This document shows positions 10,326-30,471 of a stretch of DNA of 37,102 nt, piece by piece. Every line of letters starts with the position of its first letter. The first letter of the stretch is position 1. The notes under the pieces are model-generated. The model saw only the letters and a program-made list of their open reading frames with translations. It did not search any database and was not told the origin of the DNA. Position numbers and translations under genes: made by a program. The DNA comes from Oscillospiraceae bacterium (GTDB lineage: Bacteria > Bacillota > Clostridia > Oscillospirales > Oscillospiraceae), in the NCBI GenBank assembly GCA_015067435.1, contig SVMM01000024.1:1-37102 (forward strand), in the 5' to 3' direction.

Positions 10326-11867
10326 ATGCAGGGCCGCGTATATGTCGCCATCGACCTCAAATCGTTCTACGCCAGTGTGGAGTGCGTGGACCGCGGGCTC
10401 GACCCGTTGACCACCAATCTGGTGGTGGCGGATCAGAGCCGCACGGACAAGACCATCTGTCTTGCGGTCTCCCCCTCGCTCAAGACCTACGGCATCCCCG
10501 GCCGCCCGCGCCTCTTTGAGGTCGTGCAGAAGATTCGGGAGGTCAACGCCGAGCGGGAGCGGCGTTCACCGGACGGAAAGCTCTATGTCCGCGAGTACAA
10601 CGACGCCGTCATCCGCTCCGATCCCACGTGGGCGGTGGATTACATCGTCGCGCCGCCGCGCATGGCGAGATACAAGCAGGTCAGCACCGACATCTATCAA
10701 ATTTATCTGAAATACATCGCGCCGGAGCACATCCACATCTACTCCATCGACGAGGTATTCATCGACGTGACGGAATACCTGACGCTCCACAAAATGACCG
10801 CGCGCGAGCTGACCATGGCGATGATCCGCGACGTGCTGCGCAACACGGGCATCACGGCGACGGCAGGCATCGGCGCGAACCTGTTTCTTGCCAAGGTCGC
10901 GATGGACGTGGTGGCGAAGCACCTCCCCGCCGACCGCGACGGCGTTCGCATCGCGGAGCTGGATGAGATGGGCTACCGCCGCCAGCTCTGGACGCACACG
11001 CCCATCACGGACATCTGGCGCGTCGGCCCCGGCATCGCCAAAAAGCTGGCGGCGCACGGAATGTACACGATGGGCGACGTCGCCCGCTGCTCCGTGGGAA
11101 AACCCGGCGGCTATTACAGCGAGGAGCTGCTCTACGAGCTGTTCGGCATCAACGCCGAGCTTCTGATCGACCACGCCTGGGGCTGGGAGCCGTGCACGAT
11201 GAAGGAGATCAAGGCGTACCGCTCCGAGAGCAGCAGCCTCGGCTCCGGTCAGGTATTGCAGCATCCCTATGACTTCGGCGGCGGGCGGCTGATCGTGCGC
11301 GAGATGACCGATCTGCTGGTGCTGGATCTCGTGGACAAGGGGCTGGTCACGGACCAGATCGTGCTGACGGTGGGCTACGACGTCGAAAATCTCTCCGATC
11401 CCGCGCGGCGAAAGGCGTACAAGGGCGCCGTCGTCAGCGACCGCTACGGGCGGAAGATCCCCAAGCACGCCCACGGCACGGAAGCCCTTCCCCGCTATAC
11501 GTCCTCGACGAAGGAGCTCGTCGACGCCGCCATGCGCCTTTACGACCGCATCGTTGACCCGAACCTGCTGGTGCGCCGCATGTACGTCGTGGCGGGACGC
11601 GTCCTGCCGGAGGGCGAGGCGCCGGAGGAGGCGAAAGCGGAGCAGCTTGACCTGTTCACGGACTACGCCCATGTTGAGGAACGCGAGGCCGAGGACGCCG
11701 CGTCGCGGAAGCGGGAGAAGAAGCGGCAGGAGGCGATCCTCGCCATCCAGAAGAAATACGGAAAAAACGCCATCCTCAAGGGCATGAACTTTGAGGAGGG
11801 CGCCATGACGCGCGAACGCAACGGGCAGGTCGGTGGACACCGCGCGGGAACGGAGGACGAGCTATGA
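10326..11867 (+). CDS. Y-family translesion DNA polymerase (UmuC/UvrX type)
   Basis: A 513-residue Y-family polymerase, which copies damaged DNA. Catalytic acidic residues are visible: Asp10 in AIDLKSFYASVEC and Asp142-Glu143 in SIDEVFIDV. The palm motif TATAGIGANLFLAKVAMD and the helix-hairpin-helix block WRVGPGIAKKLAAHG follow, then the little-finger domain. QLDLF at 440-444 matches a sliding-clamp binding motif. The C-terminal tail after it is charged and ends with a short KKYGKNAILKGMNF block typical of Firmicute members paired with YolD-like proteins. The ATG follows AAAGGGGG with about 10 bases of spacing. The stop overlaps the YolD-like start by 4 bases. Confidence 0.93.
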   Translation: MQGRVYVAIDLKSFYASVECVDRGLDPLTTNLVVADQSRTDKTICLAVSPSLKTYGIPGRPRLFEVVQKIREVNAERERRSPDGKLYVREYNDAVIRSDPTWAVDYIVAPPRMARYKQVSTDIYQIYLKYIAPEHIHIYSIDEVFIDVTEYLTLHKMTARELTMAMIRDVLRNTGITATAGIGANLFLAKVAMDVVAKHLPADRDGVRIAELDEMGYRRQLWTHTPITDIWRVGPGIAKKLAAHGMYTMGDVARCSVGKPGGYYSEELLYELFGINAELLIDHAWGWEPCTMKEIKAYRSESSSLGSGQVLQHPYDFGGGRLIVREMTDLLVLDLVDKGLVTDQIVLTVGYDVENLSDPARRKAYKGAVVSDRYGRKIPKHAHGTEALPRYTSSTKELVDAAMRLYDRIVDPNLLVRRMYVVAGRVLPEGEAPEEAKAEQLDLFTDYAHVEEREAEDAASRKREKKRQEAILAIQKKYGKNAILKGMNFEEGAMTRERNGQVGGHRAGTEDEL

Positions 11868-12292
11868 CAAACGATCGCGGAAACCCCCGCCGGTATGACG
11901 ACATCATCGGCCTCCCGCACCACGTCTCCGCCGTACACCCGCAGATGGCGCTTTACGACCGCGCGGCGCAGTTTGCCCCGTTCAAGGCGCTGACAGGCTA
12001 TGAGGACGAGGCCGCCGAGGCCGCGCGGCTGACCGACGCGCGCGTCGAGCTGGACAGCGCGCGCATCGAACAGCTCGACGCGCGCCTCCGGCTTCTGGCG
12101 GAGCGTCTTTCCGACGCGCCCACGGTGTCGATCACCGTCTTCCGCCCGGACGGGCGCAAGGAAGGCGGCAGCTATGAGGCCGTCACCGCCGCGGTAAAGC
12201 GGATCGACGCAGTCCGCCGCGTTCTCATTCTGCGCGACGGGCGCGAGATCGCCTTCGGCGACATCTACGGCATCGAGGGCGATATCTTTTAA
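11864..12292 (+). CDS. YolD-like protein, partner of the Y-family polymerase
   Basis: A 142-residue protein with the YolD-like N-terminal signature (RYDDIIGLPHHVS, then RAAQFAPFKALTGYEDE) and a C-terminal beta-rich half. YolD-like proteins are regularly encoded next to UmuC-type polymerases in Firmicutes and have been compared to UmuD; a direct role in controlling the polymerase is inferred from this pairing. ATG 11864 overlaps the polymerase stop (ATGA) and has GGAGG 7 bases upstream, so the pair should be made together. The middle of the protein is a long alpha-helical, alanine/leucine/arginine-rich segment that could form a coiled coil. Confidence 0.88.
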   Translation: MTNDRGNPRRYDDIIGLPHHVSAVHPQMALYDRAAQFAPFKALTGYEDEAAEAARLTDARVELDSARIEQLDARLRLLAERLSDAPTVSITVFRPDGRKEGGSYEAVTAAVKRIDAVRRVLILRDGREIAFGDIYGIEGDIF

Positions 12293-12319
12293 TGAATCGT
12301 CTTTTTGCCGGATTTTTCG

Positions 12320-12349
12320 TTGACATCGTTATTCTCAAAAGAGTATAAT
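12320..12349 (+). promoter_or_regulatory. Strong promoter of the selenium/sulfur cluster
   Basis: Perfect TTGACA (12320-12325) and perfect TATAAT (12344-12349) are separated by 18 bases, about 32 bases before the yedF ATG. It is the best promoter match in the window. Confidence 0.85.
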
Positions 12350-12381
12350 GGTGGCAATTCATCAAACAGGAGGAACATACC

Positions 12382-12996
12382 ATGGCAAACACAGTCGTTG
12401 ACGCGCGCGGCGAGCAATGCCCCATCCCCGTGGTCAAGGCGACGAAGGCGATCGCCGCGCTGACGGAGCCGGGCATTGTCGAAGTACACGTTGACAACGA
12501 GATCGCGGTTCAGAACCTGCTGCGCATGGCGTCGGGCAAGGGCTTCGCCGCAAAAAGCGAGCAGGTGGAGGAAAAGCACTACCTTATCACGATCGACGTT
12601 GACCGTCTCGCGCCCGCGGACGCGGCGGAGCCGGAGGCGGCGTGCATCCCCGACCTGCGCGGCAGCACCGTCGTCGCCGTCGGCACGGCGATCATGGGCG
12701 TCGGCAGCGACGAGCTGGGCGCGACGCTGATGAAGGGTTTTCTCTATGCGCTTTCGCAGCAGGATGAGCTGCCGAAAACGATCCTGTTCTACAACGGCGG
12801 CGCGAAGCTCACGACCGAGGGCTCGGCGTCGATCGAAGACCTGAAAACGATGGAATCGCAAGGCGTGGAGATCCTGACCTGCGGCACCTGCCTCGACTAC
12901 TACGGACTCAAGGACAAGCTGCTCGTCGGCAGCGTGACAAACATGTACGCCATCGTCGAAAAGCTGACGAAAGCGGCGAAGGTCGTCAAGCCGTGA
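12382..12996 (+). CDS. yedF: Selenium metabolism protein YedF (TusA-like + DsrE-like)
   Basis: A 204-residue two-domain protein. Residues 1-75 form a TusA/SirA-type domain with the CPxP motif (RGEQCPIPVVKA, Cys13), a persulfide or selenide carrier site in this family. Residues 95-204 form a DsrE-like domain with LTCGTCLDYYGL, the cysteine pair typical of YedF proteins. YedF is linked by comparative genomics to organisms that use selenium as selenocysteine or as a molybdenum-enzyme cofactor. AGGAGG lies 8 bases before the ATG. It is the first gene of the cluster and its stop overlaps the DUF3343 GTG start by 4 bases. No SelD gene is in the window, so selenium rather than sulfur use is inferred from family membership. 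Confidence 0.92.
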   Translation: MANTVVDARGEQCPIPVVKATKAIAALTEPGIVEVHVDNEIAVQNLLRMASGKGFAAKSEQVEEKHYLITIDVDRLAPADAAEPEAACIPDLRGSTVVAVGTAIMGVGSDELGATLMKGFLYALSQQDELPKTILFYNGGAKLTTEGSASIEDLKTMESQGVEILTCGTCLDYYGLKDKLLVGSVTNMYAIVEKLTKAAKVVKP

Positions 12997-13229
12997 GGGA
13001 GAAAACGCTGCGCACGGTCGTCGCATTTCATACGACGACCGACGCGCTGGCGATGGAGGCGTACTGCGCCGAAAACGCCGTCCCCGGGCGGCTCATTCCC
13101 CTGCCGACGATCATCTCGGCGGGCTGCGGCATGTGCTGGAGCGCGCCGGACGAGGCGCGCTCCGCCGTAACCGCCGCGGCGGAGGCAGCAGGGATCGAGA
13201 CGGACGGAATCTATCAAATGATGCTATAA
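12993..13229 (+). CDS. DUF3343 protein, putative Se/S carrier (copy 1)
   Basis: A 78-residue protein of the DUF3343 family, annotated elsewhere as putative Se/S carrier-like. The central block LPTIISAGCGMCWSAP contains a Cys-Gly-x-Cys pair that could bind a persulfide, selenide or metal. It starts with GTG 12993, overlapping the yedF stop (GTGA), and ends 25 bases before the double-cubane reductase gene. Small size and coupling to yedF suggest a carrier that receives sulfur or selenium from, or gives it to, YedF (inference). A second, different DUF3343 protein is encoded at 14526. Confidence 0.85.
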   Translation: MREKTLRTVVAFHTTTDALAMEAYCAENAVPGRLIPLPTIISAGCGMCWSAPDEARSAVTAAAEAAGIETDGIYQMML

Positions 13230-13254
13230 AGACGAAAAAGGGAGAAAGCAAATT

Positions 13255-14526
13255 ATGTCAGATTATGTTCAGATGTGGAAAGACCTCGGCATGGACCTTG
13301 CAACCCACGACCAGCTTTGTCAGGTGCTGCCGACCGCGTTCGGCGACGTGTATCTCTCGCAGGAAAACCGTCCCGAGGCGATGGGCTTCTGGGATTTCGT
13401 GGTCTCGGAGATCCACGGCATCCGTCCCAAGGAGCTGATCGAGGCGCAGAAAAACGGTCAGAAGGTGTTCGGCACGTTCTGCGTCTACGTCCCGGACGAG
13501 GTGGTCATCGCGGCAAACGGCATCGTGACGGGCCTTTGCGGCGGCTCGCAGTTCTGGGTGCCCGGCGGCGAGAAGGTACTCCCCCGCTCCACCTGCCCGC
13601 TCATCAAGGCGTCGGTCGGCGCGCGGCTCGACAAAACATGTCCCTTCTTCCGCATCGCGGATATGTATGTCGGTGAGACGACCTGCGACGGCAAGAAGAA
13701 AGCATACGAAATTCTCGGTAAGGACGTGCCGATGTACGTCATGGACGTGCCGCAGATGAAGCGCGAGAAGGATATCGTCAAATGGGCGGACGAGATCGCG
13801 GAGTTTGCGAAGAAGGTCGAGGAGTTTACCGGCAACACGATCACGGTCGAGAAGCTGAATGAGGCGATCAAGACCGTCAACGAAAAGCGCAAGGCCATGG
13901 CGCGCGTCTTCGCCGCGACAAAGGGTGAAAACATTCCCATCAGCGGCAAGGATCGCCTGCTGATGACGCAGATCGCGTTCTTCGACGATCCCAAGCGCTG
14001 CGCCGAGATGTGCAACAAGCTCGCCGATGAGCTGGAGCAGCGCAACAAGGACAACGTCTCCGTCTTCCCGAAGGGCACGAAGCGTATCCTGCTCACCGGC
14101 ACGCCGCTTGCCATCCCCAACTGGAAGCTGCACCACGTCATCGAGACCTCCGGCGCGGCTGTCGTGTGCGAGGAGATGTGCACCGGCACGCGTTACTTCG
14201 AAAACCTCGTTGATGAGTCGCAGACGACGCTGGACGGTCAGTTCCGCGCGCTCTCCGAGCGGTACATGAAGAACAACTGCGCATGCTTCACGCCGAATCC
14301 GGGCCGCATCGAGGACGTTCTGCGCCTTGCGAAGGAATATCATGCGGACGGCGTGATCGACGTCAACCTCAAGTTCTGCTGCCTGTACGACACCGAGCGC
14401 TATGCCTTGGAGAACGCGTGCAAGGAGGCGGGCATCCGCTTCCTCGGTCTGGAAACCGACTACACCGACTCCGACGCGGAGCAGCTCAAGACCCGGATCG
14501 GCGCATTTCTGGAGCTCATGCGATAA
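13255..14526 (+). CDS. Double-cubane-cluster-type anaerobic reductase (2-hydroxyacyl-CoA dehydratase/HgdB fold)
   Basis: A 423-residue member of the HgdB/BcrB superfamily, closest to the single-subunit double-cubane-cluster proteins. Such proteins carry an [8Fe-9S] cluster and carry out low-potential reductions when driven by an ATP-dependent activator. Conserved cysteine-bearing blocks are TFCVYVPDE, RSTCPLIKA, DKTCPFFRIAD, VCEEMCTGTRYF and NLKFCCLYDTE. The true reaction is unknown. No ASKHA-type activator ATPase is encoded in the window, so its electron source must lie elsewhere or differ. A GGGAGAAAG ribosome site precedes the ATG. It sits between two DUF3343 genes, and its stop overlaps the second one by one base, suggesting a role in processing sulfur or selenium bound to these carriers (inference). 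Confidence 0.88.
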   Translation: MSDYVQMWKDLGMDLATHDQLCQVLPTAFGDVYLSQENRPEAMGFWDFVVSEIHGIRPKELIEAQKNGQKVFGTFCVYVPDEVVIAANGIVTGLCGGSQFWVPGGEKVLPRSTCPLIKASVGARLDKTCPFFRIADMYVGETTCDGKKKAYEILGKDVPMYVMDVPQMKREKDIVKWADEIAEFAKKVEEFTGNTITVEKLNEAIKTVNEKRKAMARVFAATKGENIPISGKDRLLMTQIAFFDDPKRCAEMCNKLADELEQRNKDNVSVFPKGTKRILLTGTPLAIPNWKLHHVIETSGAAVVCEEMCTGTRYFENLVDESQTTLDGQFRALSERYMKNNCACFTPNPGRIEDVLRLAKEYHADGVIDVNLKFCCLYDTERYALENACKEAGIRFLGLETDYTDSDAEQLKTRIGAFLELMR

Positions 14527-14798
14527 TGGATCCCGCGGAGCTGAACTACTACATCCTTTTTTACAACTACACGCAGGGGCTCGCCCTGCACGAGCTGCTT
14601 CGGAGCGAGGGGCTGAATGCCCGCATCGCCCCGACGCCGCGCTCCATTCAGGGCGAGCTGTCCTGCGGCATGTCGCTGCTGGTGCGGGAGGCGGACATTG
14701 CCGCGATAAAGGCGTGCATCGAGCGGCATCACGCCGAGCACCACAGCATCGTCGAGCTGCCCTGCCAGATCAATCCCAACCGGGGCAAATTCTGCTGA
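14526..14798 (+). CDS. DUF3343 protein, putative Se/S carrier (copy 2)
   Basis: A 90-residue DUF3343-family protein. Its central block is GELSCGMSLLV, so the second cysteine of copy 1's CGMC is a serine here, and one cysteine closes the C-terminus (GKFC) plus one lies in LPCQIN. This different cysteine layout suggests a non-redundant partner of copy 1. ATG 14526 overlaps the reductase stop by one base (TAATG). It ends 12 bases before the desulfurase start. As with copy 1, a carrier function is inferred from family and neighbours only. Confidence 0.83.
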   Translation: MDPAELNYYILFYNYTQGLALHELLRSEGLNARIAPTPRSIQGELSCGMSLLVREADIAAIKACIERHHAEHHSIVELPCQINPNRGKFC

Positions 14799-14810
14799 AA
14801 AGGAACCGCT

Positions 14811-15953
14811 ATGATCTATCTGGACAACGCCGCCACCACGCTCAAAAAGCCCCCGCAGGTCGCGGAGGCCGTCCTCCGCGCGCTGCAAACGCTGGGCAAC
14901 AGCTCGCGCGGCACACACGAGGGCGCGCTGGACGCCGCGCACACGGTCTACGGTGCGCGGGTAAAGATTGCGAAGTTTTTCGGTTGCGCAAGGGCGGACC
15001 ATGTGATCTTTACGAGCAATATAACGGAATCGCTGAACATTGCGCTGTGCGGCCTGCTGCGTCCGGGCGACCATGCAATCTCCACGGATCTGGAGCACAA
15101 CTCCGTGCTGCGCCCGCTCTACCGTCTGGAGACAGAGCGCGGCATCGCCGTCGATTTCGTTCCCGCCGACCGGCAGGGGTGCGTCAACTACGCCGATTTT
15201 GAGCGCTTGATGCGACCGAACACGCGGCTGATCGTCTGCACGCACGCCTCAAACCTGACCGGGAATATGGTTGACATAAGACGTATTTCGGACATCGCCC
15301 GCGCGCACGGCGCGCTGCTGGTGGTCGACGCGGCGCAGACGGCGGGGACGCGTCCGGTGGATATGGAGGCGCTGGGCGCCGACGTGCTTTGCTTCACGGG
15401 CCACAAGGGGCTGATGGGCCCGCAGGGCACGGGCGGGCTGTGCATCCGCGAGGGAGTGGAGATCACGCCGTTCAAGGTCGGCGGCACGGGCGTGCAAACC
15501 TACAGCAAGACCCAGCCGGAACAGTATCCGACGCGATTGGAGGCAGGGACGCTCAACGGGCACGGCATCGCCGGCCTTTCGGCGGCGATCGACTATCTGA
15601 ACGAGGTCGGGCTCGACGCCGTCCAGGCGCGCGAAGCGGCGCTGACGCGGCGGTTTTACGAGGGTGCGCGCACCATTGACGGCGTGACGGTCTACGGCGA
15701 CTTCTGCGGCGACCGCGCGGCGATCGTGGCGCTCAACATCCGCGGCTGCGACTCCGGCTCGGTGTCCGACGCCCTGTCGCAGGACTATGGCATTGCCACC
15801 CGTCCGGGAGCGCATTGCGCGCCACTTCTGCACGAGGCGCTGGGCACAAAGGCACAGGGCGCGGTGCGCTTCAGCTTCTCGTGGTTCACCACGGAGGATG
15901 AGATCGACGCGGCGCTGTACGCGCTGCGGGAGCTCTCCCAAAACAACGGATAG
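14811..15953 (+). CDS. Cysteine desulfurase-like PLP enzyme (EF2568-type class V aminotransferase)
   Basis: A 380-residue class V PLP enzyme. It opens with YLDNAATT, has EHNSVLRPL (PLP-stacking His), DAAQTAG, the PLP lysine in FTGHKGLMGP, and the mobile catalytic cysteine in RPGAHCAPLLH. Cysteine desulfurases remove sulfur from cysteine, or selenium from selenocysteine, as an enzyme-bound persulfide or selenide. The EF2568-type subgroup is associated with selenium-cofactor loci in comparative genomics. Its position beside YedF and two DUF3343 proteins supports it as the chalcogen donor of this cluster. AAAGGAAC precedes the ATG with close spacing. A strong terminator follows at 15973, so it is the last gene of the unit. 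Confidence 0.9.
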   Translation: MIYLDNAATTLKKPPQVAEAVLRALQTLGNSSRGTHEGALDAAHTVYGARVKIAKFFGCARADHVIFTSNITESLNIALCGLLRPGDHAISTDLEHNSVLRPLYRLETERGIAVDFVPADRQGCVNYADFERLMRPNTRLIVCTHASNLTGNMVDIRRISDIARAHGALLVVDAAQTAGTRPVDMEALGADVLCFTGHKGLMGPQGTGGLCIREGVEITPFKVGGTGVQTYSKTQPEQYPTRLEAGTLNGHGIAGLSAAIDYLNEVGLDAVQAREAALTRRFYEGARTIDGVTVYGDFCGDRAAIVALNIRGCDSGSVSDALSQDYGIATRPGAHCAPLLHEALGTKAQGAVRFSFSWFTTEDEIDAALYALRELSQNNG

Positions 15954-15972
15954 AACTGTCTGCGTTACAGCA

Positions 15973-16010
15973 CGCCGCGGGTTTTGACGATCCCCGCGGC
16001 GCGCTTTTTT
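15973..16010 (+). terminator. Terminator of the selenium/sulfur cluster
   Basis: A 9-bp GC stem (CGCCGCGGG / CCCGCGGCG) with an 11-base loop is followed by CGC and T6, 20 bases after the desulfurase stop. Confidence 0.85.
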
Positions 16011-16075
16011 GCATCTCATGGCATCACGTCATTGTTATATATTATATGATATATAGCAATTTGCAACAAAATTGC

Positions 16076-16104
16076 TTGACGAAACCCCTCATCTACGATA
16101 AAGT
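16076..16104 (+). promoter_or_regulatory. Promoter of the HNH-GGDEF operon
   Basis: TTGACG (16076-16081) and TAAAGT (16099-16104) are separated by 17 bases. The upstream 16026-16070 stretch is strongly AT-rich with an ATATAT-type inverted repeat, possibly an UP element or operator. The predicted leader is about 85 bases. Confidence 0.55.
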
Positions 16105-16198
16105 AATACAAAGTGTAAGAAACGGAAGGCTTCCCCCTCCCCCGCGCCGGCACAGAGAAACATGCGCGGCAGCGCGCACAGAGAAAAAGATAACGATT

Positions 16199-16855
16199 AT
16201 GACCGAGAAAACACAACCCAATCCCGCCGCGCCCGCCGTACCCACCTGCGCCATCTGCGGCAAGCCCATTACCTCGAACTGCACCATCGACCACGTCATT
16301 CCGCAGGCGATCTACAAATGGCACGAGAACTACCTCGACCGTCCGGAATTCATCGCGCTGCGCAACCGGATCACCTCCGGGCGGAACACCGTCAAAACGC
16401 ATCGCCGCTGCAACGAACGCAAGGAGGAATCCATCGTCCGCATCGAGTCGCTGCACGTCAGCCGGACAAAGCGCGCAAAGCTGAGAAAGACCTATGACGC
16501 TGTCGATCCCTATATCAAGGCATTTATGGAGCACAAAGCGGCGCTTCTGGACGCACAGCACGGGCGTTGCTATGTCTGCCGCACCCCGCTGCAGGGCGGC
16601 GGCGTTCTCCGACGCATTGACGAGGAGCTTAGCCGGACATGGGACAACGCGTGTCTGATTTGCCACCGCTGCAATTGCCGGGTTCGCTCCAAGGATGTGA
16701 AAACCTACCGCCAGCAGCGCAAGAAGGCATCCGCGTCGTTCCGAACGCGCAAACGGCGCAGCCCGTCCGGTCAGGAAACACCGAAACAGGCGCGGACTGC
16801 CGACGCCCGCACGAGCGCGGCGGATGCATCCGCCGGAAAGGGGGAAAAGCTATGA
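16199..16855 (+). CDS. Tandem HNH/zinc-finger nuclease-like protein
   Basis: A 218-residue protein with an HNH endonuclease module at about 15-80: Cys17-x2-Cys20, TIDHVIP (Asp31-His32) and THRRCN (His68, Cys71, Asn72). A second copy of the same layout lies at about 122-165: Cys124-x2-Cys127, RIDE at 139-142 and ICHRCN (Cys155 to Asn159). In the second copy the catalytic His of the DH motif is Glu142, so it looks like a degenerate, structural or DNA-binding module. The C-terminal 50 residues are basic and low in complexity. HNH modules cut or bind nucleic acid; the target is unknown. The ATG at 16199 has only a purine-rich GAGAAAAAGA upstream. Its stop overlaps the next start by 4 bases, coupling it to a diguanylate cyclase. 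Confidence 0.82.
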   Translation: MTEKTQPNPAAPAVPTCAICGKPITSNCTIDHVIPQAIYKWHENYLDRPEFIALRNRITSGRNTVKTHRRCNERKEESIVRIESLHVSRTKRAKLRKTYDAVDPYIKAFMEHKAALLDAQHGRCYVCRTPLQGGGVLRRIDEELSRTWDNACLICHRCNCRVRSKDVKTYRQQRKKASASFRTRKRRSPSGQETPKQARTADARTSAADASAGKGEKL

Positions 16856-18138: not shown

Positions 18139-21100
18139 TTATGTAAGAATCTCGTTCAGTTGATCCCATTCAAAGTTTTCCGCCGCTTCTCTGAGCGCCT
18201 TGACGCGGTCCCGTTCGTCCTCCGGCAGCCGACAGCCGCCCAGATAGTCGATCAATTCGGCGGCGCGGTCGTACTCGAAATCCTCAAGCAGCCGGAGGAT
18301 CATGCTGTAGTTCTCCCGCAGCTCTTTCTCCGAGATCGGCGTCAGTTCCTCTTCCGGCTCCGCATCCCGCTCAAGGAGCGGCATAAGGCGCTTCCCCAGC
18401 GCACGGTAGCGCGCAAGCAGACCGCCCAGCTCCGCGTCCAGCGTTTGCGTATCGCCTGCCTTGCCCGCAAATTCCAGCTTTTCCGCCAACGCGCCGATTT
18501 CCTCCGCGCCCACGGCGCGCGACGTGCTCTTGAGCGCGTGTACCTTCAAGGCAACGGATGCGACGTCCCCGTTCCTGTGGCAAGCCTCGATCTCATCCGC
18601 AAAAGCGGCGGAGGTCCTTGCGTAGATCTCCAGCGTATCGAGATACGCGTCCTCCGCGCCGCAGAACCGAAGCCCCTGCGCGACATCCAGCTCCTCCGTA
18701 TGGTACAGCCAGTCCGGGATCTCGACTACAGGCGCCTCTTCGGCATCCGGCAGTTCCTCTTCATCATCCGCGGTCGCCGGCTCCTCCGGTTCCTTGGGTT
18801 CCTGCAAAACGGCCTCCCAAATCTGTACGCCACCCTTCCAGACACGGATATCCGCGGTCGCCTCGGTCATCAGACAGTCGACGTCTTCGTCGATCATTTG
18901 CAGCATGATCTCCGCGATGTGGGGATCGAACTGCGCGCCGCTGCATCGCGCGACCTCCGCGCGCACCGCCGCCTGCGTCTGCGGCGGCGAGTAGGCGCGT
19001 GTGGACGTCATCGCGTCATAGCAGTCCGCGACGCAGAGGATGCGCGCCGCCTCAGGAATCTCGGTGCCAACAAGTCCGTCGGGATAGCCCGTGCCGTCAT
19101 AGCGCTCGTGGTGCGAGCGCGCGCCCTGCGCAAGCTCCGGTATCTCGGCGATCGAGCGGAGAATGTCGCTGCCGATCAGGGTATGCCGCTTGATCTGCTC
19201 AAAGTCATCATCCGACAGTACCGTTTTGTTGAGCACTTCCTCGCTCACGCCGATCTTACCGATGTCGTGCAGAAGCCCCATCTCATAGATCAGCTCCTGC
19301 TCCTGCGCGCTCTTGCCCATGCGCCGCGCGATCTCGGCGGCGTAGGCGGCCACGCGCTCGGAATGGTCGTGCGTATAGCGGTCCTTTGCGTCGACGGAGC
19401 GGGACAGAGTGACCATCAGTTCCCTGTCGAGCCGCTGCTTGCGGCGGATCTGCCGCTTCACCTCGTTTTGCAGGTCGACCTGCGTCTGGTTGAGCGCGAT
19501 GATGCGTTTGGCCCGGCGAGGCAGAACCTCCCGCAGATACGCCTTGCGAATGAGGTCCGACGCGCCGTAGTGGAAACAAAGCTCCTCCGTCTCCGGGTTT
19601 TCCTCATCCGTCATGAGCACAACGGGGATGCCGTACGTCGCCGCGTTCAGCTTGATCGAGCGCAGGATCTCGAATCCGCTCGTCTCGCACACCCGGACGT
19701 CCAGCAGGATCATGTCGGGGTGATACGCCCGCGCGCACTCCACCGCATCCGCGCCGTTCCGGCAAAGCTCGACGCGGAAGGTGCCGCCGATGGCATCTTC
19801 GATCATCTTGCAGAGCGATTCGTCGCCGGTGATCGCCAGCACCGCCGACGCTGACCGCACGACTGCCGTCGGCTTCTCCGCCGTCTGGATCTTCTCCGGC
19901 GGAAGATGCGTCATCAGCATCTCCTCCAGCTTCTGGCTGTCCACGGGCTTGGACAGATAATCCGAAAAGCCCGCGTTGATGTACAGCTCCCGCGAGCCGG
20001 AGATGGCGTTCGCGGTCAGCGCGATGTACGCCGTCGCTTCACTCTCCGGCATTTTTTTCAGCTCGCGGAGCGTCTCAATGCCGTCCATTTCCGGCATCAT
20101 GTGGTCAATGAAGATCACGTCGTATTTCTGCTGCGACGCCTTCGCGATCGCCTGTGCGCCGGATGTTGCCGTTTCGACCGCGACCTGCGTTTTCTTCAAA
20201 AGGCCGCGGATGACCGTCAGATTGACCGGCATATCGTCCACAACCAAAATACGCGCGTCCGGCGCGCGGAACGACTCGTGGTACGCGACACGCTGCGCAT
20301 CGTGCGTATCAAAGCGGCCGGAGAACTCCCCGATGGGCATCCACTTGACAACGGGCTGTTCCAGCTCAAACGAGAACGTCGAGCCCTCGCCGTAAACGCT
20401 CTCCACCTCCAGTCGGCCGCCCATCAGCTCCAGCAGCTTCTTGGTGATGTTCATACCGAGGCCCGTCCCCTCGATGGAGCGGTTGCGGGATTCCTCAATG
20501 CGCGCGAACGGCTCATACAGCCGCTTCATATCCGCAGGCTTGAGGCCGATACCCGTGTCGGTGACGCGGAATTTGAGCAGGATCGCGTTCTCTCCGGACG
20601 GCTCGCAGTCCACCGCCAGCGTGACGCTGCCCCTTTCCGTGTACTTCACGGCGTTCGTCAGGAGATTCAACGCGCATTGCCGGATACGGATCTCATCGCC
20701 GAACAGCAGCTGCGGGATATCCTTCTGCACATGGACCTCAAACCGCAGCCCCTTGTCCTCCGCACGGGTGCGGATCATATTCACAAGGTCGTTTATCATC
20801 GAGCTGAGATCGTATTGCGCGGGAAGGATCTCCATCCTGCCCTCCTCTACCTTCGAGAAGTCCAGAATGTCGTTGATCAGGGAAAGCAGCGTCCTGCCCG
20901 CGGTCTGAATGTCCGCGGCGTAGCCGAGCGTTTCCCGCTCGCTGCTCTCGCGCAGGATCATCTCGTTCAGGCCGAGCATGGCGTTGATGGGCGTGCGGAT
21001 CTCGTGGGACATGTTGGCGAGAAAACTGCTCTTTGCCTTATCCGCCGCCTTTGCGCGCTCCAGCGCGTCCACGATTTCCGTCGTGTCCGAAAAAAGGATA

Positions 21101-21579
21101 TTCAGACCCACGACCTCGTCGTCGCGGTTCATGCAGCGGATGGTGCAGCGCCAGCGCTGCTGCCCTGCGCCGTTGATGAGATAGGGCTTGATCTCAAACC
21201 CCGTGAGCGCAGCCTCGCACATCTCCAGAAACTCGCCGAGCTCCTGCTCCGGGAACATGCCGGTCAGCGCCTCCCGCAGCGGGATGCCGCGCTGGATCGC
21301 CCTTCTGTCGTAGGTATCGTTGTAACGGAAATAGAGATCGGAGGTGATGACCGTGAACAGCCTGTAATCGGTCAGGATAACGATATTCGGCGACGTCCGC
21401 ATCAGCTGCTCGATGTAAAACATCTGCCGGTCGGTTTCCCTGCGGATGTAGCCCTGCGTATAGATCGCCTGCTCATTTGCCGCGCGAAGAGACGCAATAT
21501 CCTGATTCAGGCGCTTGACCTCTCTGGCCAGCTTTTTGTTTTCCAGAACCAGCCGCTTTTCGTCGTCTTTCACGTCCAT
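18139..21579 (-). CDS. Hybrid sensor kinase: PAS-HisKA-HATPase-REC-REC-HD-GYP-HPt
   Basis: A 1146-residue cytoplasmic signalling protein. Order: coiled coil (1-40), PAS (55-170), HisKA with SHEIRTP (His192), ATPase domain with NLLTNAVKYT, DTGIG and GTGLGM (295-405), receiver 1 (442-555, Asp492), receiver 2 (578-690, Asp627), HD-GYP (720-890; HDHSER at 737, HDIGK at 771, HHERYDGTGYP at 823), an acidic linker, and an HPt domain with HALKSTSRA (His1014). The HD-GYP signature is intact, so it should break down cyclic di-GMP, and the phosphorelay parts could control that activity within one chain. It has no membrane segment. The adjacent upstream FIST gene (46-base gap) may supply the sensing. The last about 70 residues form an additional small helical tail. 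RGGTGTTG-type ribosome site AGAGGTGTTGCC precedes the ATG. Confidence 0.93.
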   Translation of the reverse strand: MDVKDDEKRLVLENKKLAREVKRLNQDIASLRAANEQAIYTQGYIRRETDRQMFYIEQLMRTSPNIVILTDYRLFTVITSDLYFRYNDTYDRRAIQRGIPLREALTGMFPEQELGEFLEMCEAALTGFEIKPYLINGAGQQRWRCTIRCMNRDDEVVGLNILFSDTTEIVDALERAKAADKAKSSFLANMSHEIRTPINAMLGLNEMILRESSERETLGYAADIQTAGRTLLSLINDILDFSKVEEGRMEILPAQYDLSSMINDLVNMIRTRAEDKGLRFEVHVQKDIPQLLFGDEIRIRQCALNLLTNAVKYTERGSVTLAVDCEPSGENAILLKFRVTDTGIGLKPADMKRLYEPFARIEESRNRSIEGTGLGMNITKKLLELMGGRLEVESVYGEGSTFSFELEQPVVKWMPIGEFSGRFDTHDAQRVAYHESFRAPDARILVVDDMPVNLTVIRGLLKKTQVAVETATSGAQAIAKASQQKYDVIFIDHMMPEMDGIETLRELKKMPESEATAYIALTANAISGSRELYINAGFSDYLSKPVDSQKLEEMLMTHLPPEKIQTAEKPTAVVRSASAVLAITGDESLCKMIEDAIGGTFRVELCRNGADAVECARAYHPDMILLDVRVCETSGFEILRSIKLNAATYGIPVVLMTDEENPETEELCFHYGASDLIRKAYLREVLPRRAKRIIALNQTQVDLQNEVKRQIRRKQRLDRELMVTLSRSVDAKDRYTHDHSERVAAYAAEIARRMGKSAQEQELIYEMGLLHDIGKIGVSEEVLNKTVLSDDDFEQIKRHTLIGSDILRSIAEIPELAQGARSHHERYDGTGYPDGLVGTEIPEAARILCVADCYDAMTSTRAYSPPQTQAAVRAEVARCSGAQFDPHIAEIMLQMIDEDVDCLMTEATADIRVWKGGVQIWEAVLQEPKEPEEPATADDEEELPDAEEAPVVEIPDWLYHTEELDVAQGLRFCGAEDAYLDTLEIYARTSAAFADEIEACHRNGDVASVALKVHALKSTSRAVGAEEIGALAEKLEFAGKAGDTQTLDAELGGLLARYRALGKRLMPLLERDAEPEEELTPISEKELRENYSMILRLLEDFEYDRAAELIDYLGGCRLPEDERDRVKALREAAENFEWDQLNEILT

Positions 21580-27974: not shown

Positions 27975-29267
27975 ATGTTGGGCGTTGTTTTCGGCGCGTT
28001 TCTCGTCGCCATGGTTCTGGGGCTTCCGATGGCGGTCGCCATGGGCTCTGCGACCTTTCTTCCGCAGCTGATTAAATCCAGCTTCCCCGGCAGCATGAAC
28101 ATGATTATTCAGGCCATGATCGGCGGTCTGAACACAACGCCGATCCTTGCGATCCCGCTGTTTATGCTCTCCGGCGCGCTGATGACCCGCGGCGGCATCT
28201 CTAAAAAGCTCTTTGACATCTTCGCTTACATTGCGGGCAAGAAGACCGCGGGCGTACCCTGCGCCGTGGTCGTGACGTGCCTGTTCTACGGTGCGATCTC
28301 CGGCTCCGGCCCCGCCACCGCCGCCGCGGTCGGCGCGATGTGCATCCCCATTCTGGTGGGTCTCGGCTACGACAAGGTGTTCTCCGCCGCCATCGTGGCG
28401 ACGGCAGGCGGTCTCGGCGTCATCATTCCGCCGTCGATCCCCTTTATCATGTACGCTCTGTTCACCAACGGCTCGGTGGGCGACATGTTCACGGCGGGCA
28501 TCCTGCCCGGCTGCCTGATCGCCTTCATCCTGATGTTCTACTGCTGGTTCTACTGCAAGCGTCACGGCGAGGACAAGGCGCGCATCGCGGAGAACTTCGA
28601 GTCTCTGAAAAAACGCGGCTTTGGCAGGGTGTTTATGGACGGCTTCTGGGCCGTGTTAACGCCGATCATCATCCTCGGCGGTATCTATGGCGGCTTTGTC
28701 ACCCCCACTGAGGCGGCGTGCGTGTCCGTGTTCTATGCGCTGATCGTCTGCGTCTTCATCTACAAGACGATCAAGCCCAAGGACGTTCCCCAGCTGCTCA
28801 AGGACGCCATTGCCTCCTACGCTCCCATCTGCGTCCTGATTGGCCTCGCCACCGGCTTCAGCCGTATCCTGGTGCTGCTGCGCGCGACGGACGCCTTCCA
28901 AACGCTGCTCCAGAGCTTCATCGGCAGCCGCACCTCCCTGCTGCTCTTTGTCATCATCCTGCTGCTGATCCTCGGCATGTTCATGGACGTCGGCGCGGCG
29001 GTCGTTATCCTCGCCCCGATGCTGCTGCCCGTGGCGCAGAGCTTCGGCATCAGTCAGGTGCACCTCGGCATCATCATGGTCACCGACCTCGCCGTCGGCT
29101 TCGTCACCCCGCCGTTCGGCATGAACCTGTTCGTCGCCGCGCCGCTGGGCGATACGAACGTCGCGACACTCGGTAAAAAGGCGCTGCCGTTCATCGTCTG
29201 CTTTATTTTTGCGCTGCTGCTGATTGCCTTTATCCCCGCCATCAGCCTGTGCCTGCTGCAGAAGTGA
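27975..29267 (+). CDS. dctM: TRAP transporter large permease (DctM)
   Basis: A 430-residue polytopic membrane protein with about 12 helices. Family blocks include IPLFMLSGALMTRGGIS, GAISGSGPATAAAVGAM, GVIIPPSIPF, GGIYGGFVTPTEAA and a C-terminal GFVTPPFGMNLF. This subunit moves the solute with sodium ions in the TRAP system. The ATG immediately follows the dctQ stop (TAA then ATG), with no separate ribosome site, so coupling is expected. It is nearly full length for the family and a close relative of the truncated DctM at 1-975. Confidence 0.95.
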   Translation: MLGVVFGAFLVAMVLGLPMAVAMGSATFLPQLIKSSFPGSMNMIIQAMIGGLNTTPILAIPLFMLSGALMTRGGISKKLFDIFAYIAGKKTAGVPCAVVVTCLFYGAISGSGPATAAAVGAMCIPILVGLGYDKVFSAAIVATAGGLGVIIPPSIPFIMYALFTNGSVGDMFTAGILPGCLIAFILMFYCWFYCKRHGEDKARIAENFESLKKRGFGRVFMDGFWAVLTPIIILGGIYGGFVTPTEAACVSVFYALIVCVFIYKTIKPKDVPQLLKDAIASYAPICVLIGLATGFSRILVLLRATDAFQTLLQSFIGSRTSLLLFVIILLLILGMFMDVGAAVVILAPMLLPVAQSFGISQVHLGIIMVTDLAVGFVTPPFGMNLFVAAPLGDTNVATLGKKALPFIVCFIFALLLIAFIPAISLCLLQK

Positions 29268-29271
29268 TCCC

Positions 29272-29289
29272 TCTCCCTGATACGGGAGA
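29272..29289. other. Intercistronic hairpin between dctM and dctP
   Basis: A perfect 6-bp stem (TCTCCC / GGGAGA) with a 6-base loop lies just after the dctM stop. A second AT-rich stem (AATAAA / TTTATT, 29296-29312) follows near the dctP ribosome site. Such elements often raise the amount of binding-protein mRNA relative to permease mRNA; this is inferred. Confidence 0.45.
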
Positions 29290-29328
29290 ACAAATAATAA
29301 ACCAGATTTATTTATGGAGGAAAAGAAC

Positions 29329-30471
29329 ATGAAGCGCAAACACATCATCTCTCTGGCTCTTGCACTGGTCATGGTGTTCAGCCTCGTCGCCTGCGGCGGC
29401 GGTGACACCGGCAGCACCCCCACGACCACCCCTGCGGCTCCCGCGGCTACCGGCACCACCACGACCCCCGCAGCCCCCGCCGCCAGCACCACCACCGAGC
29501 TGGTGGACGACACCACCGGCCTCAAGATCGCCTGCGAGCCCATCGAACTCTCCATGGGCTGCTCCGGCACCATCGACGGCACCGCCAGCGGCGACGCTGT
29601 CTACAAGTACCTTGAAGAGATCAAGCAGTGGACCGACGGCAACTTCGTCATTAACTTCTATCCCTCCGGCCAGCTGGGCGGCGACGCTGAGCTGATCGAG
29701 GGCGTGCAGATGGGCAGCGTGGACATCTTCATGGGTTCCCCCTCCGCCCAGATCGGTCTTGTTCCGGAGCTGGCGATCCTCGACATCGCGGGCCTCTATG
29801 AGAACATCGAGCAGTGCAACGAGGTGCTCTCCGGCGGCGTGAGAGACCAGCTTGAGACCTACTACAACAAGGCCGGTCTGCATCTCGGCTCCGCCTTCTC
29901 CACCAGCTTCCGCATCACCTCCTCCAACAAGGCGATCAACAGCCTTGCCGACCTGCAGGGCCTGAACATCCGCACGCAGGAAAACAAGTACCACATGGCG
30001 TTCTGGAAGGCGCTGGGCGCCAACCCGACCCCGCTGGCGTGGGGTGAGGTCTACATCGCTCTCCAGCAGAACATGCTGGACGCGCAGGAGAACCCCTGGG
30101 TCTCCTATGTCGGCGCCAAGATCTGCGAGGTCCAGAGCAACATGACATTCACCAACCACATCCCCTTCATCCTCACCTTCGTCACCAGCAATGCCAAATA
30201 TCAGAGCATGAGCGACGCGCAGAAGCAGGCGCTCAACCAGTTCTTCTACTCCGTTCAGAAGGAGACCGCCGAGAAGTCCCCCGCCGACGATGAGCGCATG
30301 CAGAAGATGTGCGAGGACACCTACGGTCTCGTGTGCGCCGACCTCGCGCCGGACATCTGGGCCGCCTATCCCGCCGCCACGCAGGCTGTCGTCGACCTGA
30401 TGAAGCAGGATATCGATCCGACGCTTGTGGACAATTATGTCGCCGCGGCGAAGGCTGCCGTCGGCAACTGA
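29329..30471 (+). CDS. dctP: TRAP transporter solute-binding lipoprotein (DctP)
   Basis: A 380-residue extracellular binding protein. The signal peptide ends with the lipobox LVAC (Cys22), followed by a Thr/Pro/Ala-rich linker of about 40 residues that tethers the domain to the membrane. The DctP fold follows, with the carboxylate-binding arginine in LNIRTQENKY and the block ANPTPLAWGEVYIALQQNMLDAQENPW. The ligand is therefore probably an organic acid. ATG 29329 was chosen because GGAGG lies 8 bases upstream; an earlier ATG at 29314 overlaps that site. It is last in the dctQMP operon and is followed by a terminator at 30622. Confidence 0.94.
   Translation: MKRKHIISLALALVMVFSLVACGGGDTGSTPTTTPAAPAATGTTTTPAAPAASTTTELVDDTTGLKIACEPIELSMGCSGTIDGTASGDAVYKYLEEIKQWTDGNFVINFYPSGQLGGDAELIEGVQMGSVDIFMGSPSAQIGLVPELAILDIAGLYENIEQCNEVLSGGVRDQLETYYNKAGLHLGSAFSTSFRITSSNKAINSLADLQGLNIRTQENKYHMAFWKALGANPTPLAWGEVYIALQQNMLDAQENPWVSYVGAKICEVQSNMTFTNHIPFILTFVTSNAKYQSMSDAQKQALNQFFYSVQKETAEKSPADDERMQKMCEDTYGLVCADLAPDIWAAYPAATQAVVDLMKQDIDPTLVDNYVAAAKAAVGN

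Follow-up and report, generated by a model that had tools for sequence, protein, structure and literature searches.

In several of the closest described systems, members of the YedF, DUF3343 and cysteine desulfurase families are associated with selenium, and all three families recur, together with a double-cubane cluster protein (DCCP), in a five-gene operon located between positions 12320 and 16010 of a 37,102-nucleotide stretch of Oscillospiraceae bacterium DNA (assembly GCA_015067435.1, contig SVMM01000024.1, positions 1 to 37,102, forward strand; hereafter the window). Lin et al. 2015 (PMC5322559) tie YedF and DUF3343 to selenium, and Table 1 of that paper, listing the STRING partners of both, contains a run of consecutive locus tags in Slackia heliotrinireducens (Shel_25420-25470) which, like the window operon, comprises a selenocysteine lyase/desulfurase, YedF, two DUF3343 proteins and a 2-hydroxyglutaryl-CoA dehydratase-type protein. 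The Slackia cluster differs in having an activase (Shel_25420) and, near by locus tag, SelD (Shel_25360), both absent from the window operon; in the part of the paper that deals with these genes, no role is proposed for the dehydratase-like protein.

Haft and Self 2008 (PMC2276186) described the labile selenium cofactor of molybdenum hydroxylases and regarded the EF_2566-EF_2568 genes of Enterococcus faecalis as likely to be selenium genes, with a probable role ahead of selenophosphate synthesis. This cluster resembles the window operon in its YedF (TIGR03527) and EF_2568 lyase and contains selD, which the window's genome carries outside the operon; the paper's table lists no DCCP or DUF3343 for it. 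In Methanococcus maripaludis, TusAD transcripts are reported to rise by 4.5-4.6 log2 upon selenium depletion (PMC11097638). DCCP and its reductase are represented by the solved structures PDB 6eno and 7yyl, in comparison with which the window DCCP stands among selenium genes and without an adjacent activase. Kountz and Balskus 2023 (PMC10418091) describe DCCP as 'provisionally linked' to selenium metabolism, the mlp gene clusters with DCCP/DCCPR treated there being built around corrinoid methyltransferases, which are absent from the window operon, and a passage of a 2025 structural paper (PMC11971306) still calls the function of DCCP unknown. Finally, the yjiM-yjiL-ytiA genes of E. coli K-12 encode a DCCP-type protein (over the DCCP cut-off), an activase and a PF11823 protein, the uncharacterised YtiA (L104:4669-4926, minus strand; Se/S-carrier-like, 48.9 bits), but no yedF, desulfurase or selD within the 11 kb shown.

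The window operon belongs to the already known kind of cluster represented by the Slackia set, now with stronger evidence on what its reductase serves. The operon is probably a selenium-mobilising module upstream of SelD, which would extract and reduce selenium and hand it on via carriers. The evidence under this reading comprises (i) the gene content, (ii) family membership, (iii) the presence of selD in the genome, (iv) the near-perfect co-occurrence of DCCP and selD in the genome samples, and (v) the recurrent linkage to selD. As far as our searches show, the quantified DCCP-selD tie, the DUF3343 subtype located behind DCCP and the gene fusions described below appear to be new; the only literature found to join a hydroxyglutaryl-CoA dehydratase with selenium and SelD was Lin et al. 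2015. The operon comprises the following features:

12320..12349 (+): putative sigma-70-type promoter, TTGACA-18-TATAAT, 12/12 consensus match
12382..12996 (+): yedF; TIGR03527, 217 bits (cut-off 110), with PF01206 and PF02635
12993..13229 (+): DUF3343-A, Se_S_carrier of the subtype beside yedF (ISAGCGMCW); PF11823, 71.7 bits (cut-off 25), subtype from alignment
13255..14526 (+): DCCP, double-cubane-cluster anaerobic reductase; NF040772, 484 bits (cut-off 350)
14526..14798 (+): DUF3343-B, Se_S_carrier of the subtype following DCCP, with a C-terminal Cys; PF11823, 63 bits (cut-off 25), subtype motif
14811..15953 (+): EF2568-type cysteine desulfurase, candidate selenocysteine lyase; TIGR01977, 416 bits (cut-off 377)
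15969..16010 (+): intrinsic terminator, GC hairpin and six T; -24.5 kcal/mol, z -3.9

The near-perfect promoter, the strong terminator and the five-gene content that the original prediction had read in this region all stand, with yedF, DCCP and the desulfurase scoring over curated cut-offs and both DUF3343 proteins over the Pfam gathering score. Across 11500-16800, six promoter-like sites were found versus 1.0 in shuffles, the site at 12320-12349 scoring best; the terminator hairpin (15969-16005, with the T-run extending to 16010) was absent from the output of a simple scan over the same interval and was seen only on folding of a 56-base stretch. The claim that most junctions overlap by 1-4 bases was mistaken, as just two of the four do, yedF/DUF3343-A by 4 bp and DCCP/DUF3343-B by 1 bp, the other two being gaps of 25 and 12 bp. 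A contig of another assembly, L110, carries the identical five genes in identical order, with 83% identity of the operon DNA over 3,559 columns and 91% identity between the DCCP proteins, and the arrangement is therefore no accident of a single assembly; the exact promoter hexamers of the window were not found in the 500 bases searched in L110.

Absence of selD and of all selenium-cofactor genes, which the original prediction had named beforehand, together with conserved linkage to a non-selenium pathway, as refuting its selenium role, is not the case: selD was found elsewhere in the window's genome (406 bits, cut-off 125). It adjoins a gene for a YqeB-type protein (354 bits, cut-off 220), whose frame overlaps a YqeC match (163 bits, cut-off 73), and lies near a selenium-dependent xanthine dehydrogenase match (TIGR03311, 1,227 bits, cut-off 830) and XdhA/XdhB-type genes. 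With selD and yqeB/yqeC near a molybdenum hydroxylase, the genome has the selenium-cofactor trait of selenium-dependent molybdenum hydroxylases (SDMH). At E 1e-40, selA gave no match in this assembly, which is rated 96% complete, and selU gave a single match of 20.6 bits, under its cut-off of 219.75, so that neither the selenocysteine nor the selenouridine trait is assigned. Because selD, yqeB, yqeC and the xanthine dehydrogenase gene are present while selA and selU were not found, the labile molybdenum-hydroxylase cofactor is the sole selenium use found in this genome.

The co-occurrence of DCCP and selD was quantified in (i) a class set of 176 Clostridia genomes, taken in one draw, (ii) a phylum set of 249 genomes, at least nine of them also present in the class set, and (iii) 50 genomes picked for taxonomic spread from 80 named DCCP relatives, in at least three of which selD occupies the same place as in genomes of the draws. 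Over cut-off, the class set contains selD in 44 genomes, yedF in 44, selA in 33, yqeB in 23 and DCCP in 22. All 22 DCCP genomes have selD (hypergeometric p 4e-16), and all 22 also have yedF. For calibration, selD is co-present in 23/23 yqeB, 32/33 selA and 41/44 yedF genomes, and DCCP is thus as closely tied to selD as accepted selenium genes are. The tie persists when genomes are pooled by family (families tallied by eye from their labels), with selD in 8/8 families with DCCP versus 16/62 families overall (p 4e-6), and recurs in the phylum set (78/79 DCCP genomes, against a background of 168/249; Fisher p 1e-15) and in the named genomes (50/50 over cut-off, with titles including Coriobacteriia and Synergistaceae), three of which have selD inside the DCCP locus itself. 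Neither DCCP nor DUF3343 matches in any of 14 control genomes other than E. coli and M. jannaschii, the two with selD over cut-off. As for the selenium uses of the 22 class-set DCCP genomes, selA is present in 18 and yqeB in 12, and no genome is without both; the module therefore serves selenium use as a whole. Of the co-occurrence test that the original prediction proposed, the part with selD is borne out for DCCP, and the part with selenium-dependent molybdenum hydroxylases proves too narrow. Together with the selenium genes of the window's genome, this near-perfect match of DCCP, the gene on which the original prediction had least to build, lends good support to the selenium role.

The same counts bear on a rival explanation, namely that an anaerobic lifestyle in Clostridia and their relatives favours DCCP as well as selD, with no common pathway between them. 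The sets are mostly Bacillota, the sampled part of which is largely anaerobic, and close linkage of DCCP to yedF, selD, selA or yqeB is confined to 6 of the 22 class-set genomes. Nevertheless, selD reaches a background of only 25% in the same class sample, the association survives at family level, and six genomes show linkage where 1.1 are expected. The contrast is also visible within a single genus, g91, where G107, G147 and G164 have DCCP, DUF3343, yedF, selD and selA, and none of the five exceeds its cut-off in G129. Furthermore, eight class-set genomes hold weaker, sub-cut-off matches to this model of DCCP (E of 1e-40 or better), three of which lack selD (G036, G129, G175). A shared lifestyle is already an improbable account of the tie, and we give it very little weight.

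Concerning the proteins, the window DCCP aligns over its full length, end to end, with 6eno and 7yyl (E about 2e-134), and eight cysteines (C76, C95, C114, C129, C144, C309, C342 and C375) are invariant in 14 aligned sequences and also present in the alignments with the solved structures. YedF comprises a TusA-like domain (CPIP, Cys13) fused to a DsrE-like domain (CGTC, Cys167/170), in agreement with the CPxP and CGxC motifs of its family. The desulfurase carries the GHKG lysine motif and the RPGAHCAP cysteine. Both DUF3343 proteins contain the central cysteine, which is conserved without exception across 86 B and 30 A sequences. Sequence alignment separates the family into two subtypes according to neighbourhood: the proteins encoded after DCCP (subtype B) carry roughly the motif PTPRxxSxCCGxSLL, and 70/89 have a Cys within the last four residues, versus roughly IPxPRxISAGCG and 4/39 for those located elsewhere (subtype A). 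The window operon holds one of each, DUF3343-B terminating in Cys; YtiA of E. coli is without this C-terminal Cys. The AlphaFold prediction of DUF3343-B (pLDDT, the predicted local distance difference test, 79.7) displays a ferredoxin-like beta-alpha-beta-beta-alpha-beta arrangement and places the conserved Cys47 in the loop that joins strands two and three; the structural matches reflect this common arrangement and are uninformative on function.

Two natural fusions, one instance of each, tie the DUF3343 family to its proposed partners: (i) a single frame (L204:4869-6167, plus strand) joining DUF3343 (residues 2-64) to SelD (97-401), and (ii) a YjiL-type activase with a C-terminal DUF3343 domain (L150:9351-10505, plus strand) in a metagenome-assembled genome of Coriobacteriia. 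DUF3343 by itself is no selenium marker because it is present in 127/176 class-set genomes, far beyond selD. The original prediction had held YedF, DUF3343 and the desulfurase to be each linked to selenium; the treatments of these families in PMC5322559 and PMC2276186 agree, and the breadth of DUF3343 limits the statement for this family taken alone. This breadth also favours a sulfur pathway, in which the desulfurase, YedF and DUF3343 would supply sulfur, for instance for the [8Fe-9S] cluster of DCCP or for molybdenum cofactor sulfuration, and the link to selD would be indirect. In 76 of the 80 named loci, DUF3343-B lies directly after DCCP, a position that would suit an assembly factor. In addition, the window's genome holds a third DUF3343 (G000:C30:99411-99614; L090:7370-7621), paired between ispD and the cdaA/ybbR genes with another EF2568-like desulfurase (351 bits, below the cut-off of 377), possibly reflecting a selenium-independent sulfur role of the family. 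However, a supply of sulfur leaves unexplained the restriction of DCCP to selD genomes, the DUF3343-SelD fusion and the runs of selD, yedF, desulfurase and DUF3343 without a nearby DCCP (L092, L093, L094, L096, L097), and we judge it distinctly unlikely.

The neighbourhoods of DCCP display recurrent association with selenium genes. In 6/22 class-set genomes, the distance from DCCP to yedF, selD, selA or yqeB is at most 15 kb (1.1 expected, P 6e-4). The arrangements observed include (i) yqeC-yqeB-yedF-selD-DCCP-yjiL (L074, L078), (ii) selD-selA-selB-DCCP-DUF3343-yjiL (L077), (iii) DCCP-DUF3343-yjiL-desulfurase-[DUF3343-SelD fusion]-yedF (L204), (iv) DCCP-yjiL-DCCP-DUF3343-desulfurase-SelD-yedF (L207), and (v) selD-yedF-DUF3343-yjiL-desulfurase-DCCP-DUF3343 (L117, L121, L125). 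Across the 80 named loci, half of which end early at contig ends, an activase is found in 57, a desulfurase in 47, yedF in 15, selD in 8, and any of yedF, selD, selA, selB, yqeB, yqeC or xdh in 17; in the full-length loci, an activase lies within 8 kb in 35/40, L110, of the window type, being among the five without one.

Of the genes scanned, many DCCP loci hold just DCCP, DUF3343 and the activase, a composition that would suit a different role, in which DCCP reductively cleaves small organic selenium compounds (methylated selenium or other C-Se bonds) and the carriers and desulfurase handle the freed selenium. This would still be selenium acquisition, with a nutrient rather than a carrier-bound atom as the key substrate. 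The DCCP genes in clusters proposed for methyl-selenium metabolism (in the portion of PMC10418091 concerned with them) point the same way, and DCCP is optional among selD genomes, as expected of a nutrient-specific route. On the other hand, the window DCCP lies within an operon with the desulfurase and YedF, with no other gene in between, and no corrinoid methyltransferase occurs among seven scanned of the ten frame groups found in at least five of the 80 named loci (three short groups left out). Organic selenium as the main substrate is, on balance, unlikely, but it merits more weight than a supply of sulfur.

Under the preferred reading, a selenium-mobilising module upstream of SelD, the pyridoxal phosphate-dependent desulfurase would draw selenium (or sulfur) from selenocysteine (or cysteine) as a perselenide or persulfide, which the cysteine carriers DUF3343-A and YedF would accept. 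DCCP, charged by an ATP-driven activase, would give low-potential electrons and free the carrier-bound selenium as selenide; alternatively, its input may be low-valent or organic selenium, likewise released as selenide. DUF3343-B would act as a carrier dedicated to DCCP. SelD would convert the selenide to selenophosphate, which in the window's genome would supply the labile selenium of a molybdenum hydroxylase, the selenium-dependent xanthine dehydrogenase. The first (desulfurase) and last (SelD) steps rest on family knowledge, and the DCCP step we infer. A related desulfidase, whose sole cofactor is a [4Fe-5S] cluster, appears to be converted to a sulfur-transferring enzyme according to the pertinent part of PMC11971306, and offers a family precedent for a chalcogen-handling cluster.

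Several observations weigh against this reading. The chemistry of the module, including the reductive step on a carrier-bound sulfur or selenium and the order of steps put forward by the original prediction, is likewise what we infer. No activase gene of the YjiL/DCCP-R type lies within the window operon, and the best of five activase matches found outside it in the genome (275 bits, G000:C29) adjoins two hydroxyacyl-CoA dehydratase-type (HGD-D) genes; therefore either this activase is shared or the assembly lacks a dedicated one. The desulfurase scores 366 bits against the model of the selenocysteine lyase SclA (NF040779), the one selenocysteine-lyase model that it matched, under the cut-off of 525; it is not claimed as SclA, although it may act on selenocysteine. 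DCCP is dispensable for selD genomes, 22 of the 44 in the class set being without it, including G029 of the same family and G103 of the same order. With only 6/22 class-set genomes linked, tight linkage is the minority condition. One phylum-set genome in 79, G387 (94% complete), has DCCP without selD, the gene sitting in a run yjiL-DCCP-yedF-desulfurase-DUF3343, and in G036, without selD, a distant DCCP relative (270 bits, under cut-off) adjoins an activase. Moreover, the genome-level p-values are inflated by shared ancestry.

A more specific and doubtful proposal, to which we would assign about the same low weight as to organic selenium, is that DCCP is a dedicated selenide producer whose cluster directly incorporates selenium, for instance through exchange of the cubane-bridging sulfide for selenide from the two-cysteine DUF3343-B, super-reduction by the activase then releasing it to SelD. 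If cluster exchange were true, DCCP would gain its missing natural substrate, and it would become apparent how anaerobes supply SelD without loose, toxic selenide. Two questions converge here, the purpose of double-cubane proteins and what feeds selenide to SelD in cells; given the co-occurrence, the DUF3343 behind DCCP and the DUF3343-SelD fusion, both can be put to the test in common laboratory strains, among them E. coli K-12.

Further genes were observed beside DCCP. In L081 (7879-9720, minus strand), a Pfam scan identified, directly beside DCCP, a fusion of a desulfurase-like class-V aminotransferase with a diphthamide-synthase-type domain; frames of similar size occur in L084 and L085, the Pfam domains having been scanned for L081 alone. 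A 264-aa HGD-D-like protein is encoded just before DCCP in L180 (7195-7989, plus strand), with similar ones in L140, L149, L171, L178, L179 and L181, occurring in Finegoldia, Anaerococcus, Peptoniphilus and others. A LysR-type regulator, perhaps the selenium-linked LysR of Lin et al. 2015, lies near DCCP in L114 (4833-5732, minus strand) and seven other loci. Elsewhere in the window, a hybrid sensor kinase that combines receiver, HD and Hpt domains (18139-21579, minus strand) is encoded near the 3' side of the operon, and a tripartite ATP-independent periplasmic (TRAP) transporter permease (DctM) with its binding protein (DctP), unlinked to the operon, occupies 27975-30471 (plus strand).

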